Part shown: in pieces, positions 2,788 through 19,198 of the stretch
How positions within the stretch are numbered: the first letter of the stretch is position 1
How the letters are laid out: each line of letters begins with the position of its first letter
Assembly (NCBI RefSeq): GCF_023158935.1
Contig: NZ_CP096120.1
Location: 1,674,001 to 1,738,000, forward strand
Source: Acinetobacter portensis
Lineage (GTDB): Bacteria; Pseudomonadota; Gammaproteobacteria; Pseudomonadales; Moraxellaceae
Reading direction: 5' to 3'
DNA length: 64,000 bases
The notes under the pieces: generated by a model
Told to the model about the DNA's origin: nothing
The model's database searches: none
Seen by the model: the letters and a program-made list of their open reading frames with translations, nothing else
Program-made: the position numbers and the translations under genes

Positions 2788-3181
2788 AAAAAGATTAGTT
2801 CTTACCTTTTGTATACTTGGCTTTTTACAAACAAGCTTTGCTGGTTTTGATCGTTTTTGGATTTTATCTAAAGATGCAAATACTCAAATTGGTGATACTT
2901 GGGACAGTATGAGTGATGAAGAACAACAAGCGCTAATTAAACGCTACCAATCTTTAAATAAAGAGCTACCTGAATCTGCCCGTAATTCATTACAACAACG
3001 TATGGATTGGTTTAGTCAACTTCCAGATGCAGAGAAACAGCAGATGCGTGAAGCTTGGCAAAAAATGAGCACACAAGAACGTAAGGAATTAAGCCAGCGT
3101 TTACAAAAAGCTGAACCTGAAAATCGTGCGCTTATTCGTGAAGAATATATTCAAAAATATAAAACAATTTATAATAACTAA
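2777..3181 (+). CDS. Secreted DUF3106-like protein of the sigma operon
   Basis: A 134-residue protein with an N-terminal signal sequence (positive start, hydrophobic core LVLTFCILGFLQTSFA, likely cleavage after about residue 22). The mature part is helical and charged. It contains two similar segments of the type W..MS..EQQALI.RYQSL and W..L.DAEKQQMREAWQKMS, as in DUF3106 and periplasmic stress proteins of the CpxP/Spy kind. It would act in the periplasm. As third gene of the sigma-factor operon it is a plausible target or modulator of that regulator. A near-perfect palindromic terminator follows. Confidence 0.7.
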   Translation: MVAKKRLVLTFCILGFLQTSFAGFDRFWILSKDANTQIGDTWDSMSDEEQQALIKRYQSLNKELPESARNSLQQRMDWFSQLPDAEKQQMREAWQKMSTQERKELSQRLQKAEPENRALIREEYIQKYKTIYNN

Positions 3182-16542: not shown

Positions 16543-17472
16543 ATGAAAAATCAAAATAGTCCTGAACGGATCACCATTGAAGATCAAAGCTTCGGTAGTC
16601 ATGTAGAGCATTGGAATTTACTAACAGACCAACCTGCCACAGATGTACCTAAATGGCTTGGTTTGGCACTTGATGCTCCAATTATGCCCATGGGTTTGTG
16701 TAAAGAAGAATGTGAAATGGATGCGCAATCTTGGCTAATTCAAGGTCCAAGCAAAGCAGCCATTTTACTTAACCAAGTTATTGACGTTGAAAATAATAAA
16801 CCCAAAGCAGTTAAAACGGCATTCCCAACATTTGAAAGCCCGTACAAGGTAGATGCGAAAATTGAACGCATTATCTGTGGAAAATCGAATACGCAAGCCG
16901 TTTTACAACTCAATGTAGGCGCAGGCGTTGCTTATGCATTTGACAATTTATATAGCGTAAACCACTTACAGTACGACAAAGAACAAACCTATAACGTACA
17001 ATTTAATGGTTGGGCATATGAATTAGAAGCAGTATCTGATCATGAACAAATTGTTGTTGATGATCCTGCATCTATTAAACACCACCGTGCACTAAATGAT
17101 ATTTTGGCGGAAAATGGTGGCGTTGCTCCTGAAAACTTACAGGAGTTATTAGATGCATGGGAACCGAAAAATGACGATGACAAAGAACCTGTAACTGTCG
17201 ATTTTTCAAAAATGGTTGCTTATCTTTATGGTGAAACAATGGGACAAGAAGATGAAGCTTGGTTCCAAAGTAAGATTGTTGGCAAAACATCTATGAATTT
17301 CATGGATAATGAATATACGCTGTACGATGTCACACTTTTCTTAGAAGAAAATCAACCTGCTGTTCTTGCGCGTATTGCTACAAAAAACCAAGACTATCGC
17401 AACTTTGAAATAGGACAATACATTCGTGGAAATATTTGGCTTCAAGTCAATATTTTTAATAAAAAACAATAA
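16543..17472 (+). CDS. Uncharacterised protein
   Basis: I do not recognise the family. With ATG 16543 the protein has 309 residues, is acidic and soluble, and has no signal peptide or membrane segment. It contains a cluster of acidic residues around 215-228 (PKNDDDKEP). The C-terminal half has alternating strands (YDVTLFLEEN, GNIWLQVNIFNKK) suggestive of a beta-rich domain. GTG 16537 is two codons upstream and also possible. Upstream is a 240-base spacer with no obvious promoter. A terminator follows, so it is transcribed alone. Confidence 0.7.
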   Translation: MKNQNSPERITIEDQSFGSHVEHWNLLTDQPATDVPKWLGLALDAPIMPMGLCKEECEMDAQSWLIQGPSKAAILLNQVIDVENNKPKAVKTAFPTFESPYKVDAKIERIICGKSNTQAVLQLNVGAGVAYAFDNLYSVNHLQYDKEQTYNVQFNGWAYELEAVSDHEQIVVDDPASIKHHRALNDILAENGGVAPENLQELLDAWEPKNDDDKEPVTVDFSKMVAYLYGETMGQEDEAWFQSKIVGKTSMNFMDNEYTLYDVTLFLEENQPAVLARIATKNQDYRNFEIGQYIRGNIWLQVNIFNKKQ

Positions 17473-17484
17473 TTTATATAAATA

Positions 17485-17537
17485 AAAAATCTCGGTTTTG
17501 TTTTGCTTTTGCATAAATAAATACCGAGATTTTTTTA
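17485..17537 (+). terminator. Terminator after the uncharacterised gene
   Basis: AAAATCTCGGT pairs with ACCGAGATTTT around a loop of about 25 bases, followed by a T-run. Confidence 0.75.
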
Positions 17538-17583: not shown

Positions 17584-17693
17584 TTATCCACAATTTTGGA
17601 TTATTTTTTAATCATTTTAAATTCAAAAAATAATAGCTTATCCACAGGTTTAAATTCAATTTCTTGTTTTTAAATTCAAATAATTGTGGATAA
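17584..17693. promoter_or_regulatory. Cluster of three perfect DnaA boxes with interleaved repeats
   Basis: TTATCCACA occurs at 17584-17592 and 17638-17646, and its reverse complement at 17685-17693. The direct repeat TTTAAATTCAA occurs at 17616-17626, 17649-17659 and 17669-17679, interleaved with them. All are seen directly. The surrounding gap 17540-17890 is very AT-rich and otherwise empty. Function as a DnaA-binding locus is inferred. Confidence 0.7.
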
Positions 17694-17894
17694 TTTTTAT
17701 TCTAATTTATTTTTATAAAGATAATCTGAAAGCCTGAATTTACTTGGTTTTTTATAATAATTTGAAATTAAATCTATAAAATAATAACTTTATTAAGTTA
17801 ATTTGAAATAGTACTTTATTTAATCAATATTTTATGTTAAAAATATGACAAACCAATGGAATCAACGATAAATAGATCATCGGAAATAATATCT

Positions 17895-18035
17895 ATGAGA
17901 ATCGTGCAAGAAGAAAATTTACAGCAAGTAGAACATCGAATTGGAAATCGTTACCAGTTAGATCTTATGTCATGCCTATTTTTTGTATTGGGGATGTTTG
18001 TTTCTGCTTATTTATTACACACCTTCGTTTTCTAA
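17895..18035 (+). CDS. Possible small membrane protein, 46 residues
   Basis: An ATG-to-TAA reading frame with a polar N-terminal half (RIVQEENLQQVEHRIGNRY) and one membrane segment (LMSCLFFVLGMFVSAYLL). A GGAAA ribosome site lies about 11 bases upstream, and a strong terminator begins 36 bases downstream. It is alone between that terminator and the AT-rich DnaA-box gap. The composition is protein-like and unlike the surrounding AT-rich DNA, which supports a real gene. The family is unknown to me. Confidence 0.5.
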   Translation: MRIVQEENLQQVEHRIGNRYQLDLMSCLFFVLGMFVSAYLLHTFVF

Positions 18036-18118: not shown

Positions 18119-19198
18119 TTAAGCATTGCGTTTCGCAAAGTCATCCATGAAGTTTACAAGCGCTTGTACGCCTTCTAATGGTACAGCGTTATAGATACTT
18201 GCACGCATACCACCAACAGAGCGGTGACCCGCTAAGTTAAGAAGATTATTTTCTTCAGCTTCTTGCAAGAATTGTTTTTCCAATTCTGGTTTAGCCAAAG
18301 TAAATGGAACATTCATAATTGAACGGTTTGCTTTAGCAATTGGGTTCGCATAGAAATCGCTTGCATCAATGTAACCATAAAGTAATTTAGCTTTCGCCAT
18401 ATTCGCTTTATGAATTGCTTCCACACCACCCTGCTCTAATAACCATTCAAATACTAAGCCAGATAAATACCATGCATAAGTAGATGGTGTATTTACCATT
18501 GAATCATTTTTTGCTTGATCGCTATATTTCAAAATGCTTGGAATTTCAGGTTTTGCTTGATCAAGTAAATCTTCACGAACAATAACAAGTGTTAAACCTG
18601 CTGGCCCAATATTTTTTTGAGCACCCGCATAAATTAAACCAAACTTTGTTACATCAATTGGTGCAGACAAAATACTTGAAGATAAATCTGCAACTAAAGG
18701 TTTATCTGTTTCAGGAATATTTGCAAATTGGATACCACCAATTGTTTCATTCTCAGCATAATGAACATAAGCTGCATCTGCAGATAAGTTCCACGTGCTT
18801 TGATCTGTAATTGCAAGCTTACCGTCAATTGTTGTACCTGCTTCAATAACATTGATATCGCCATAACGCTGCGCTTCTTTCAATGCCTTTTCAGACCAAA
18901 TACCTGTATGAATGTAATCTGCTTTATTATTTTTCCCTAAAAGATTTAATGGAATTGCAGAAAACTGTAGCGATGCACCACCTTGTAAGAACAATACTTT
19001 ATAGTTCTCAGGAATATTCATGAGTTTACGTAGATCTGCTTCTGCTTTTTCAGCAACCGCAACATAGTCTTTACTACGATGGCTCATTTCCATGATCGAA
19101 AGACCTTTACCTTGCCAATCAAGCATTTCCGCTTGAGCTTTTTCTAGAACAGCAGTAGGTAATGCAGCAGGACCAGCACAGAAGTTGTACGCGCGCAT
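18119..19198 (-). CDS. serC: Phosphoserine aminotransferase
   Basis: A cytosolic PLP enzyme that converts 3-phosphohydroxypyruvate and glutamate to phosphoserine and 2-oxoglutarate. It also serves pyridoxal phosphate synthesis. With ATG 19198 (MRAYNFCAGPAALP) it has 359 residues, and AAAGGA precedes the start. The PLP lysine lies in YAGAQKNIGPAGL. FLQGGASLQF and HRSVGGMRASIYNA are the other family blocks. A further in-frame upstream extension lacks homology and is rejected. It is monocistronic, ending at the terminator 18071-18099. Confidence 0.96.
   Translation of the reverse strand: MRAYNFCAGPAALPTAVLEKAQAEMLDWQGKGLSIMEMSHRSKDYVAVAEKAEADLRKLMNIPENYKVLFLQGGASLQFSAIPLNLLGKNNKADYIHTGIWSEKALKEAQRYGDINVIEAGTTIDGKLAITDQSTWNLSADAAYVHYAENETIGGIQFANIPETDKPLVADLSSSILSAPIDVTKFGLIYAGAQKNIGPAGLTLVIVREDLLDQAKPEIPSILKYSDQAKNDSMVNTPSTYAWYLSGLVFEWLLEQGGVEAIHKANMAKAKLLYGYIDASDFYANPIAKANRSIMNVPFTLAKPELEKQFLQEAEENNLLNLAGHRSVGGMRASIYNAVPLEGVQALVNFMDDFAKRNA

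Follow-up and report, generated by a model that had tools for sequence, protein, structure and literature searches.

In Escherichia coli, Dam/SeqA control of oriC and dnaA depends on orphan adenine methylation around DnaA boxes. DnaA is also reactivated at the DARS loci and inactivated at datA. According to the parts of PMC5742627 covered here, the DARS core comprises three boxes with equal spacing in both DARS, with box I opposite to boxes II and III, and a minimal datA consists of same-direction boxes together with an IHF site.

Acinetobacter has an orphan adenine methyltransferase of its own, AamA, for which TTTRAATTYAAA was proposed as the target in A. baumannii ATCC 17978 (Yang et al. 2023; PMC10483419, parts covered). 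The chromosome of this strain carries 66 sites of the subtype; two runs showed 59 and 41 of them to be methylated, compared to none in the mutant. Methylation is dense in region 1 (29 sites; 29 and 28 methylated) and in region 2, located 5' of dnaA (9 sites; 9 and 9 methylated), and an AamA-methylated site lies at the promoter of the trmD operon. The sites are mainly extragenic, and loss of aamA alters the expression of neighbouring genes such as rpsP/trmD, the trmD operon being lower in the mutant. The mutant also grows slower and shows a 1.5-2.4-fold increase of rnpA, dnaA and pitA. Complementation did not restore the growth, filament and dnaA phenotypes, and filaments, seen in one medium, occurred in both the mutant and the complemented strain (all PMC10483419, parts covered). 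Partial m6A at TTTRAATTNA and TNTNAATTNAAA was found in every A. baumannii strain tested, with AamA named as a possible cause (Vesel et al. 2023; PMC10287943, parts covered), and a 2026 paper has the same motif among the A. baumannii methylation motifs (PMC13227989, parts covered). The motif was thus published in 2023 with a few dense clusters, and the covered parts of PMC10483419 give no account of their placement; its main text names DnaA five times and oriC never, and DnaA boxes are not mentioned in these parts. In the covered parts of the publications carrying the AamA motif we found no connection to DnaA boxes, and among the matches listed no title names AamA/DnaA-type control in Acinetobacter. 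A literature search for RAATTY with Acinetobacter returned a Campylobacter paper alone.

We analyzed a stretch of 64,000 nucleotides from A. portensis, hereafter the window, which corresponds to C1:1674001-1738000 of a 3.03-Mb genome. As the preliminary description had reported, it contains three perfect TTATCCACA DnaA boxes, two direct and one inverted (+,+,-), within 110 bp (C1:1691584-1691693), together with three TTTAAATTCAA repeats. The coordinates of both were confirmed, and all three repeat copies (17616, 17649 and 17669) lie inside the span set by the outer boxes. The site had been placed in the gap between an uncharacterised gene and serC, where it indeed lies, but this gap is not empty, since it contains a 46-codon ORF that we call P3. 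The surroundings are as AT-rich as described, with 17.8% GC in the 422-bp gap between the uncharacterised gene, here P2, and P3 (17473-17894). The features of the region are as follows.

16543..17472, plus strand: upstream gene P2, 309 aa; 94% identical to an A. portensis protein
17484..17535, plus strand: intrinsic-terminator-like hairpin 3' of P2, -22.6 kcal/mol, z -7.5, with a T run; putative function
17584..17592, plus strand: DnaA box 1, TTATCCACA, perfect
17616..17627, no strand assigned: match to the AamA methylation motif, upstream copy, TTTAAATTCAAA, perfect 12-mer
17638..17646, plus strand: DnaA box 2, TTATCCACA, perfect
17649..17660, no strand assigned: match to the AamA motif, middle copy, TTTAAATTCAAT, 11/12, 2 bp past box 2
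17669..17680, no strand assigned: match to the AamA motif, third copy, TTTAAATTCAAA, perfect 12-mer, also present in the named A. portensis locus L181
17685..17693, minus strand: DnaA box 3, TTATCCACA inverted, perfect
17812..17844, plus strand: conserved promoter-like block 5' of P3, with at most 4 mismatches to a 31-base consensus in 42/52 regions and at most 7 in 51/52
17895..18035, plus strand: P3, 46-codon ORF, a small protein with a hydrophobic C-terminal half
18119..19198, minus strand: serC, TIGR01364

P2 has no Pfam or NCBIfam match and P3 no protein-family match. P3 matches (E 0.01 or better) were found in 102/114 loci, window included, and the identity is 60-76% where the composite of box and AamA site is near, 38-40% in five loci with the composite farther, and lower elsewhere. 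A simple terminator scan reported none at the hairpin 3' of P2, and in the promoter-like block no strong match to the sigma-70 consensus was seen. With Rfam, the DnaA boxes had no match, and four matches near serC stayed below threshold.

The TTTAAATTCAA repeat matches the AamA target TTTRAATTYAAA, so that the locus carries two perfect 12-mers and one 11/12 copy in 110 bp. When box and repeat were searched as a composite across the genus, the repeat variants were TTTAAATTTA, TTTGAATTTA and TTTAAATTCA, which correspond to TTTRAATTYA. The preliminary description had taken the layout of boxes and repeat as that of a datA or DARS locus or an origin-like unwinding region. For the repeat, this was not supported: the literature match replaced the unwinding-element reading, and by itself an AamA motif says nothing for any of the three, although oriC does hold it. 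This methylation half, which had gone unrecognised, would link the site to oriC and to a published methyltransferase. A D12-class methyltransferase (PF02086, with FAGSG and DPPY motifs) is encoded between ribD and ribE and is the sole PF02086 match in the genome; matches were present in 117/119 genomes. We take this gene as the candidate AamA, an assignment made by family, catalytic motifs and context. The two genomes lacking a match are G128 (99%-complete) and G043 (65% complete). In G128 the count of box plus AamA composites equals the reversed control (4 vs 4, one genome), which is suggestive of a possible natural loss of the methyltransferase.

A three-box cluster is not expected in such DNA. 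When the 422-bp gap was shuffled 20,000 times with dinucleotides preserved, no shuffle had more than one box or more than two TTTAAATTCAA copies, and three of either were never reached; two perfect AamA 12-mers, as in the real gap, occurred in 6/20,000. Genome-wide, perfect DnaA boxes number 42 against 36 in a reversed control (3.03 Mb), and perfect AamA motifs 26 against 19. Hence, neither motif is far above its control, and clustering and pairing alone stand out. Overall, the genome shows no richness in the box. Only this site and oriC have at least three perfect boxes inside 200 bp. Four other clusters in this genome consist of one motif only, either boxes or AamA sites. Across four genomes, 11 of 160 perfect boxes outside oriC lie at most 150 bp from an AamA site (G012 and G081 left out, G000 counted from contig C1 only), compared to 0.19 by uniform placement, an expectation that overstates the enrichment because it ignores the AT-richness that both motifs favour.

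Conservation was addressed in 119 genomes with serC, 118 besides the window's own. From these, 113 neighbouring regions were taken (none from G087, G130, G045 (contig end), G043 and G044; L087 and L101 are shortened by contig ends), which gives 114 loci with the window. The P2-serC gap was long in 54 of them, window included, and short in 50; the 10 loci without a P2 match are excluded from the long/short counts, and two of these, L050 and L132, carry a box near an AamA core. Among the long-gap loci, a perfect box was found in 41/54, the AamA 10-mer core in 41/54, and both within 45 bp of each other in 37/54, against means of 0.35, 4.6 and 0.000, respectively, in shuffled copies. Short-gap loci had neither the box (0/50) nor the core (0/50), and consequently not both (0/50).

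The conserved unit starts with a box and an AamA site, followed by the second box and, 2 bp after it, another AamA site. Of 52 long intergenic regions, counting the window, 36 contain its second half, box 2 with the adjacent AamA site, with at most 4 mismatches in 22 positions; in the shuffles it was recovered in 0/52 over 40 rounds. These 52 are the regions in which P2 and P3 both matched and the gap length is at least 150; distances were taken from 34 loci and column counts from 22 dereplicated lineages. Since the 22 lineages were picked on this half (at most 4 mismatches), the agreement inside it is partly by construction: 20-22/22 agree at 19 of 20 specified positions and 16/22 at the last, compared to 11.3/22 on average in the flanking columns. 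The same selection applies to box 2, perfect in 18/22 and with one mismatch in 4/22, and to the RAATTY core of the downstream site, intact in 22/22 (upstream site, 20/22). At the Y position of the downstream site, C is found in 15 lineages, T in 7 and a purine in 0. Box 1 and the upstream AamA site played no part in the selection. Box 1 was perfect in 15 of the 22 lineages, 51-54 bp 5' of box 2, had one mismatch in 4 and was worse in 3; the 19/22 with at most one mismatch compare to a shuffle mean of 0.1 and a maximum of 2 of 22. The best match to the upstream AamA site lay 21-24 bp 5' of box 2 in 21/22 and had at most 2 mismatches in 20/22 (shuffles: mean 1.6, maximum 5 of 22). The general part of the site is the same-direction core of box 1 and box 2, 51-55 bp apart. 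Box 3 is kept in A. portensis and L072, degenerate in L085, and not general.

In a midpoint-rooted tree of the P2 protein, all site-bearing loci (40/40) fall into one clade of 58 with a support of 0.84, and presence and absence of the site require 10 state changes. Because it is absent from 50/50 short-gap loci, because 17/54 long-gap loci have no perfect box within 45 bp of the core and because of these 10 changes, the site is dispensable. It is a property of part of the genus and has decayed several times. Where it is kept, it occupies the same place (36/52 long regions), and this conservation makes the observation stronger than first stated. On the sequence side, the refuting sign named in the preliminary description, a lack of conservation among relatives, was thus not borne out. 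Among 50 named records, chosen by P2 similarity, 9 carry the site; they come from A. portensis, A. terrestris, A. lwoffii, A. pseudolwoffii and A. pecorum. One of the 50, L226, is not judgeable because its sequence stops within P2. Neither motif was found at this place in A. pittii, A. nosocomialis, A. calcoaceticus, A. baylyi, A. haemolyticus, A. venetianus, A. ursingii, A. soli, A. dispersus and A. gyllenbergii.

The dnaA start codon is the first base of contig C1, and the last 220 bases of C1 hold four perfect DnaA boxes (C1:2568300-2568436). We therefore take oriC to lie at the junction of C1. The site is 877 kb from it, which is 34% of C1 (31 and 30% of the chromosome in two other genomes), in line with the earlier suggestion that it is probably not oriC. 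To the left and right of the site alike, GC skew stays mostly below zero, as inside a replichore. Four dif-like sequences lie on C1, the best placed of them at C1:1243962; if this one is right, the site lies at 66% of the left replichore.

Of the 26 perfect TTTRAATTYAAA sites in the genome, 11 are found within 436 bp (L171 3654-4089; C1:2548653-2549088). This hub is located 19.6 kb from dnaA, between a gene for an MltB-type transglycosylase and purK, and has no perfect DnaA box and one with a mismatch. The remaining perfect motifs include three at C1:188.5k and three at C1:285.9k, both clusters without DnaA boxes, two at the site and one at oriC, 180 bp from the nearest perfect box. Five other genomes have a cluster at 18-25 kb from oriC that combines 8-14 AamA motifs with 1-4 perfect boxes, and their oriC has 2-4 AamA motifs and 4-7 boxes (the oriC stretches of G012 and G081 end at the contig end). 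In these genomes the hub was recognised by motif density and distance to oriC, flanking genes being checked in G000 only. Perhaps the hub corresponds to region 1 of A. baumannii (PMC10483419, parts covered).

Pairing of the two motifs was found throughout the genus. The pattern of a box, 0-24 bases and TTTRAATTYA has 399 occurrences in 108/119 genomes (overlapping matches counted apart), and the reversed pattern 19, in 10 genomes. A gap of 2 bp is the commonest single value (20) among 150 of the 399 matches, in which orthologues are counted repeatedly; no helical spacing rule is drawn from this sample.

Several other places with boxes or AamA sites were noted. Located 5' of rpsP in the trmD operon (L150 about 3103-3123; C1:280102-280122) is a DnaA box next to a near-AamA site, the composite having 3 mismatches. 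A TTATCCACAnnTTTGAATTTA composite recurs in more than ten relatives. An inverted DnaA-box pair with an 8-nt loop, CTTGTGGATAA-n8-TTATCCACAAG, is found at L033 990-1015 (C1:2023689-2023714), and pairs of this orientation and spacing occur also in G007 (three), G010, G048 and G081; it may act as an RNA hairpin rather than a DnaA site. Two perfect boxes with near-copies in repetitive-looking coding sequence (L034 928-1017; C1:2034387-2034416) are probably not regulatory. About 7 kb right of the contig start, G081 has three perfect boxes (L247 614-757) and G012 one (L243 787-923), each with two AamA sites; neither motif is found at this place in the window's own genome. On contig C4 (64.6 kb), a perfect box and a perfect AamA motif are 80 bp apart (L178 3242-3333), possibly in a plasmid origin region. 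Of 26 XerCD-type (pdif-like) sites genome-wide, the smaller contigs C4 and C6 account for 11 and 10, or 21 together.

We favor, with slightly less than even confidence, the reading that this site, roughly one third of the chromosome away from oriC, is a control locus which binds DnaA and which AamA methylation tunes. Two (here three) boxes of predicted high affinity would then have AamA target sites between and beside them. DnaA would bind the two same-direction boxes, and on box 2 it would sit against two methylatable palindromes, which AamA would methylate. Passage of the fork would leave the AamA sites hemimethylated, making the newly replicated locus unlike the mature one, and the methylation state could alter DnaA occupancy, either directly or via a reader protein. 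Capture and release of DnaA would thereby be tied to replication of the locus and to AamA activity. By itself, the site would be a modest DnaA sink or a timing mark, alongside oriC and the hub with their larger sets. This reading is built on the boxes, the motifs and their near-fixed spacing, on the pairing that other species show at oriC and at the hub, and on the genus-wide candidate AamA gene, all of which we observed; DnaA binding and methylation at this site, and an effect of methylation on binding or initiation, we infer. Methylation of the motif and the higher dnaA transcript in the aamA mutant are in print for A. baumannii only (PMC10483419, parts covered).

More speculatively, and as a rather doubtful extension, AamA could mark oriC, the hub about 20 kb off and also the serC-side locus in that part of the genus which has it, such that fork passage and methylation would set DnaA capacity and initiation timing as a counterpart of Dam/SeqA. 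The pairing of AamA sites and DnaA boxes at oriC, hub and a mid-chromosome locus suggests a direct hypothesis on why the aamA mutant grows slowly and has more dnaA transcript, and it offers a testable route into replication control in Acinetobacter. The bacterium may use the AamA mark to tune where or when DnaA binds.

The main rival, possible though not probable, places the function in transcription: the site would be the upstream control region of P3, in which DnaA and AamA form a methylation-sensitive switch with no role in initiation. Box 2 lies 241-284 bp 5' of the P3 start (254 +/- 9.5 bp, 34 loci) and 170 +/- 21 bp from P2, and the steadier distance to P3 fits local gene control. Box 2 also sits between the terminator-like hairpin of P2 and the promoter-like block. 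Precedent exists in that AamA sites are mostly extragenic and loss of aamA shifts rpsP/trmD expression (PMC10483419, parts covered), and a box with a near-AamA site is likewise present 5' of rpsP. However, the start of box 2 and the end of box 3 in the window are 174 and 119 bp, respectively, 5' of the promoter-like block, a long way for DnaA to act as a simple switch. In L070, L078, L079, L082 and L088, about 445 bp separate the composite from P3, and other species have boxes and AamA sites paired at oriC and the hub as well.

Alternatively, the AamA sites could be the functional unit, acting in segregation, in nucleoid organisation or through a reader that sequesters hemimethylated DNA, with the boxes being secondary. 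The hub points this way, as it has 8-14 AamA sites and only 0-4 perfect boxes in six genomes, and so do the box-free AamA clusters at C1:188.5k and C1:285.9k. At the serC-side locus, however, boxes 1 and 2 recur with the AamA sites, and we consider this explanation unlikely.

That the site is a bona fide DARS or datA in the E. coli sense appears quite improbable. For the presumed titration or reactivation locus of the preliminary description, the conserved, non-chance box cluster holds, whereas a general three-box DARS core and a conserved datA IHF site were not found. Like DARS and datA, the site is a non-coding box cluster away from oriC, and it is kept in relatives at a similar distance to oriC. 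Read on the minus strand, the boxes of the window are ordered +,-,-, as given for DARS boxes I-III (PMC5742627, parts covered). This order fits the window and, with a one-mismatch box 1, the named A. portensis locus; the third box, however, is not general. The two general boxes share one direction like the essential datA boxes, but no IHF-like site is conserved next to them. With WATCAANNNNTTR, which we take to be the IHF consensus, an exact match fell within the 118-bp span in 1/36 loci, and matches with at most one mismatch fell between the boxes in 6/36 (without a shuffle control), a search that could miss a diverged IHF site.

Finally, chance motifs or an ectopic or relic origin are very improbable: the gap has 17.8% GC and both motifs are present at oriC, but the shuffles and the conserved footprint oppose chance, and an origin is opposed by the lack of an adjoining replication gene among the listed ORFs and by the mostly negative GC skew on either side, as within a replichore.

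Returning to the favored reading of a DnaA-binding locus tuned by methylation, the site resembles several described systems in part. Like E. coli datA, it is a non-coding cluster of same-direction, predicted high-affinity boxes off oriC; unlike it, it has no conserved IHF site, which datA needs, and no methylation motif is given for datA in the covered parts of PMC5742627. With DARS1 and DARS2 it shares a non-coding, three-box cluster off oriC, but the general core here consists of two same-direction boxes instead of the three of DARS (PMC5742627, parts covered). Membership in either class is not claimed. The DnaA-box clusters of B. subtilis and Streptomyces coelicolor are also chromosomal and are reported to repress untimely initiation, while no methylation partner is named there in the same parts of PMC5742627. 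Regions 1, 2 and 10 of A. baumannii ATCC 17978 have the same TTTRAATTYAAA, with dense sites in regions 1 and 2 (PMC10483419, parts covered), whereas the serC-side site is missing in the species of the A. calcoaceticus-baumannii complex that were sampled (A. pittii, A. nosocomialis and A. calcoaceticus). With Dam/SeqA (PMC13201069, parts covered), the locus shares putative orphan adenine methylation near boxes, and hemimethylation could mark newly replicated DNA. The differences are that another methyltransferase, a 12-bp palindrome and few, partly clustered sites (26 perfect) would be involved here. In its action, the site may be comparable to a DnaA-box cluster that bears a Dam-like mark.
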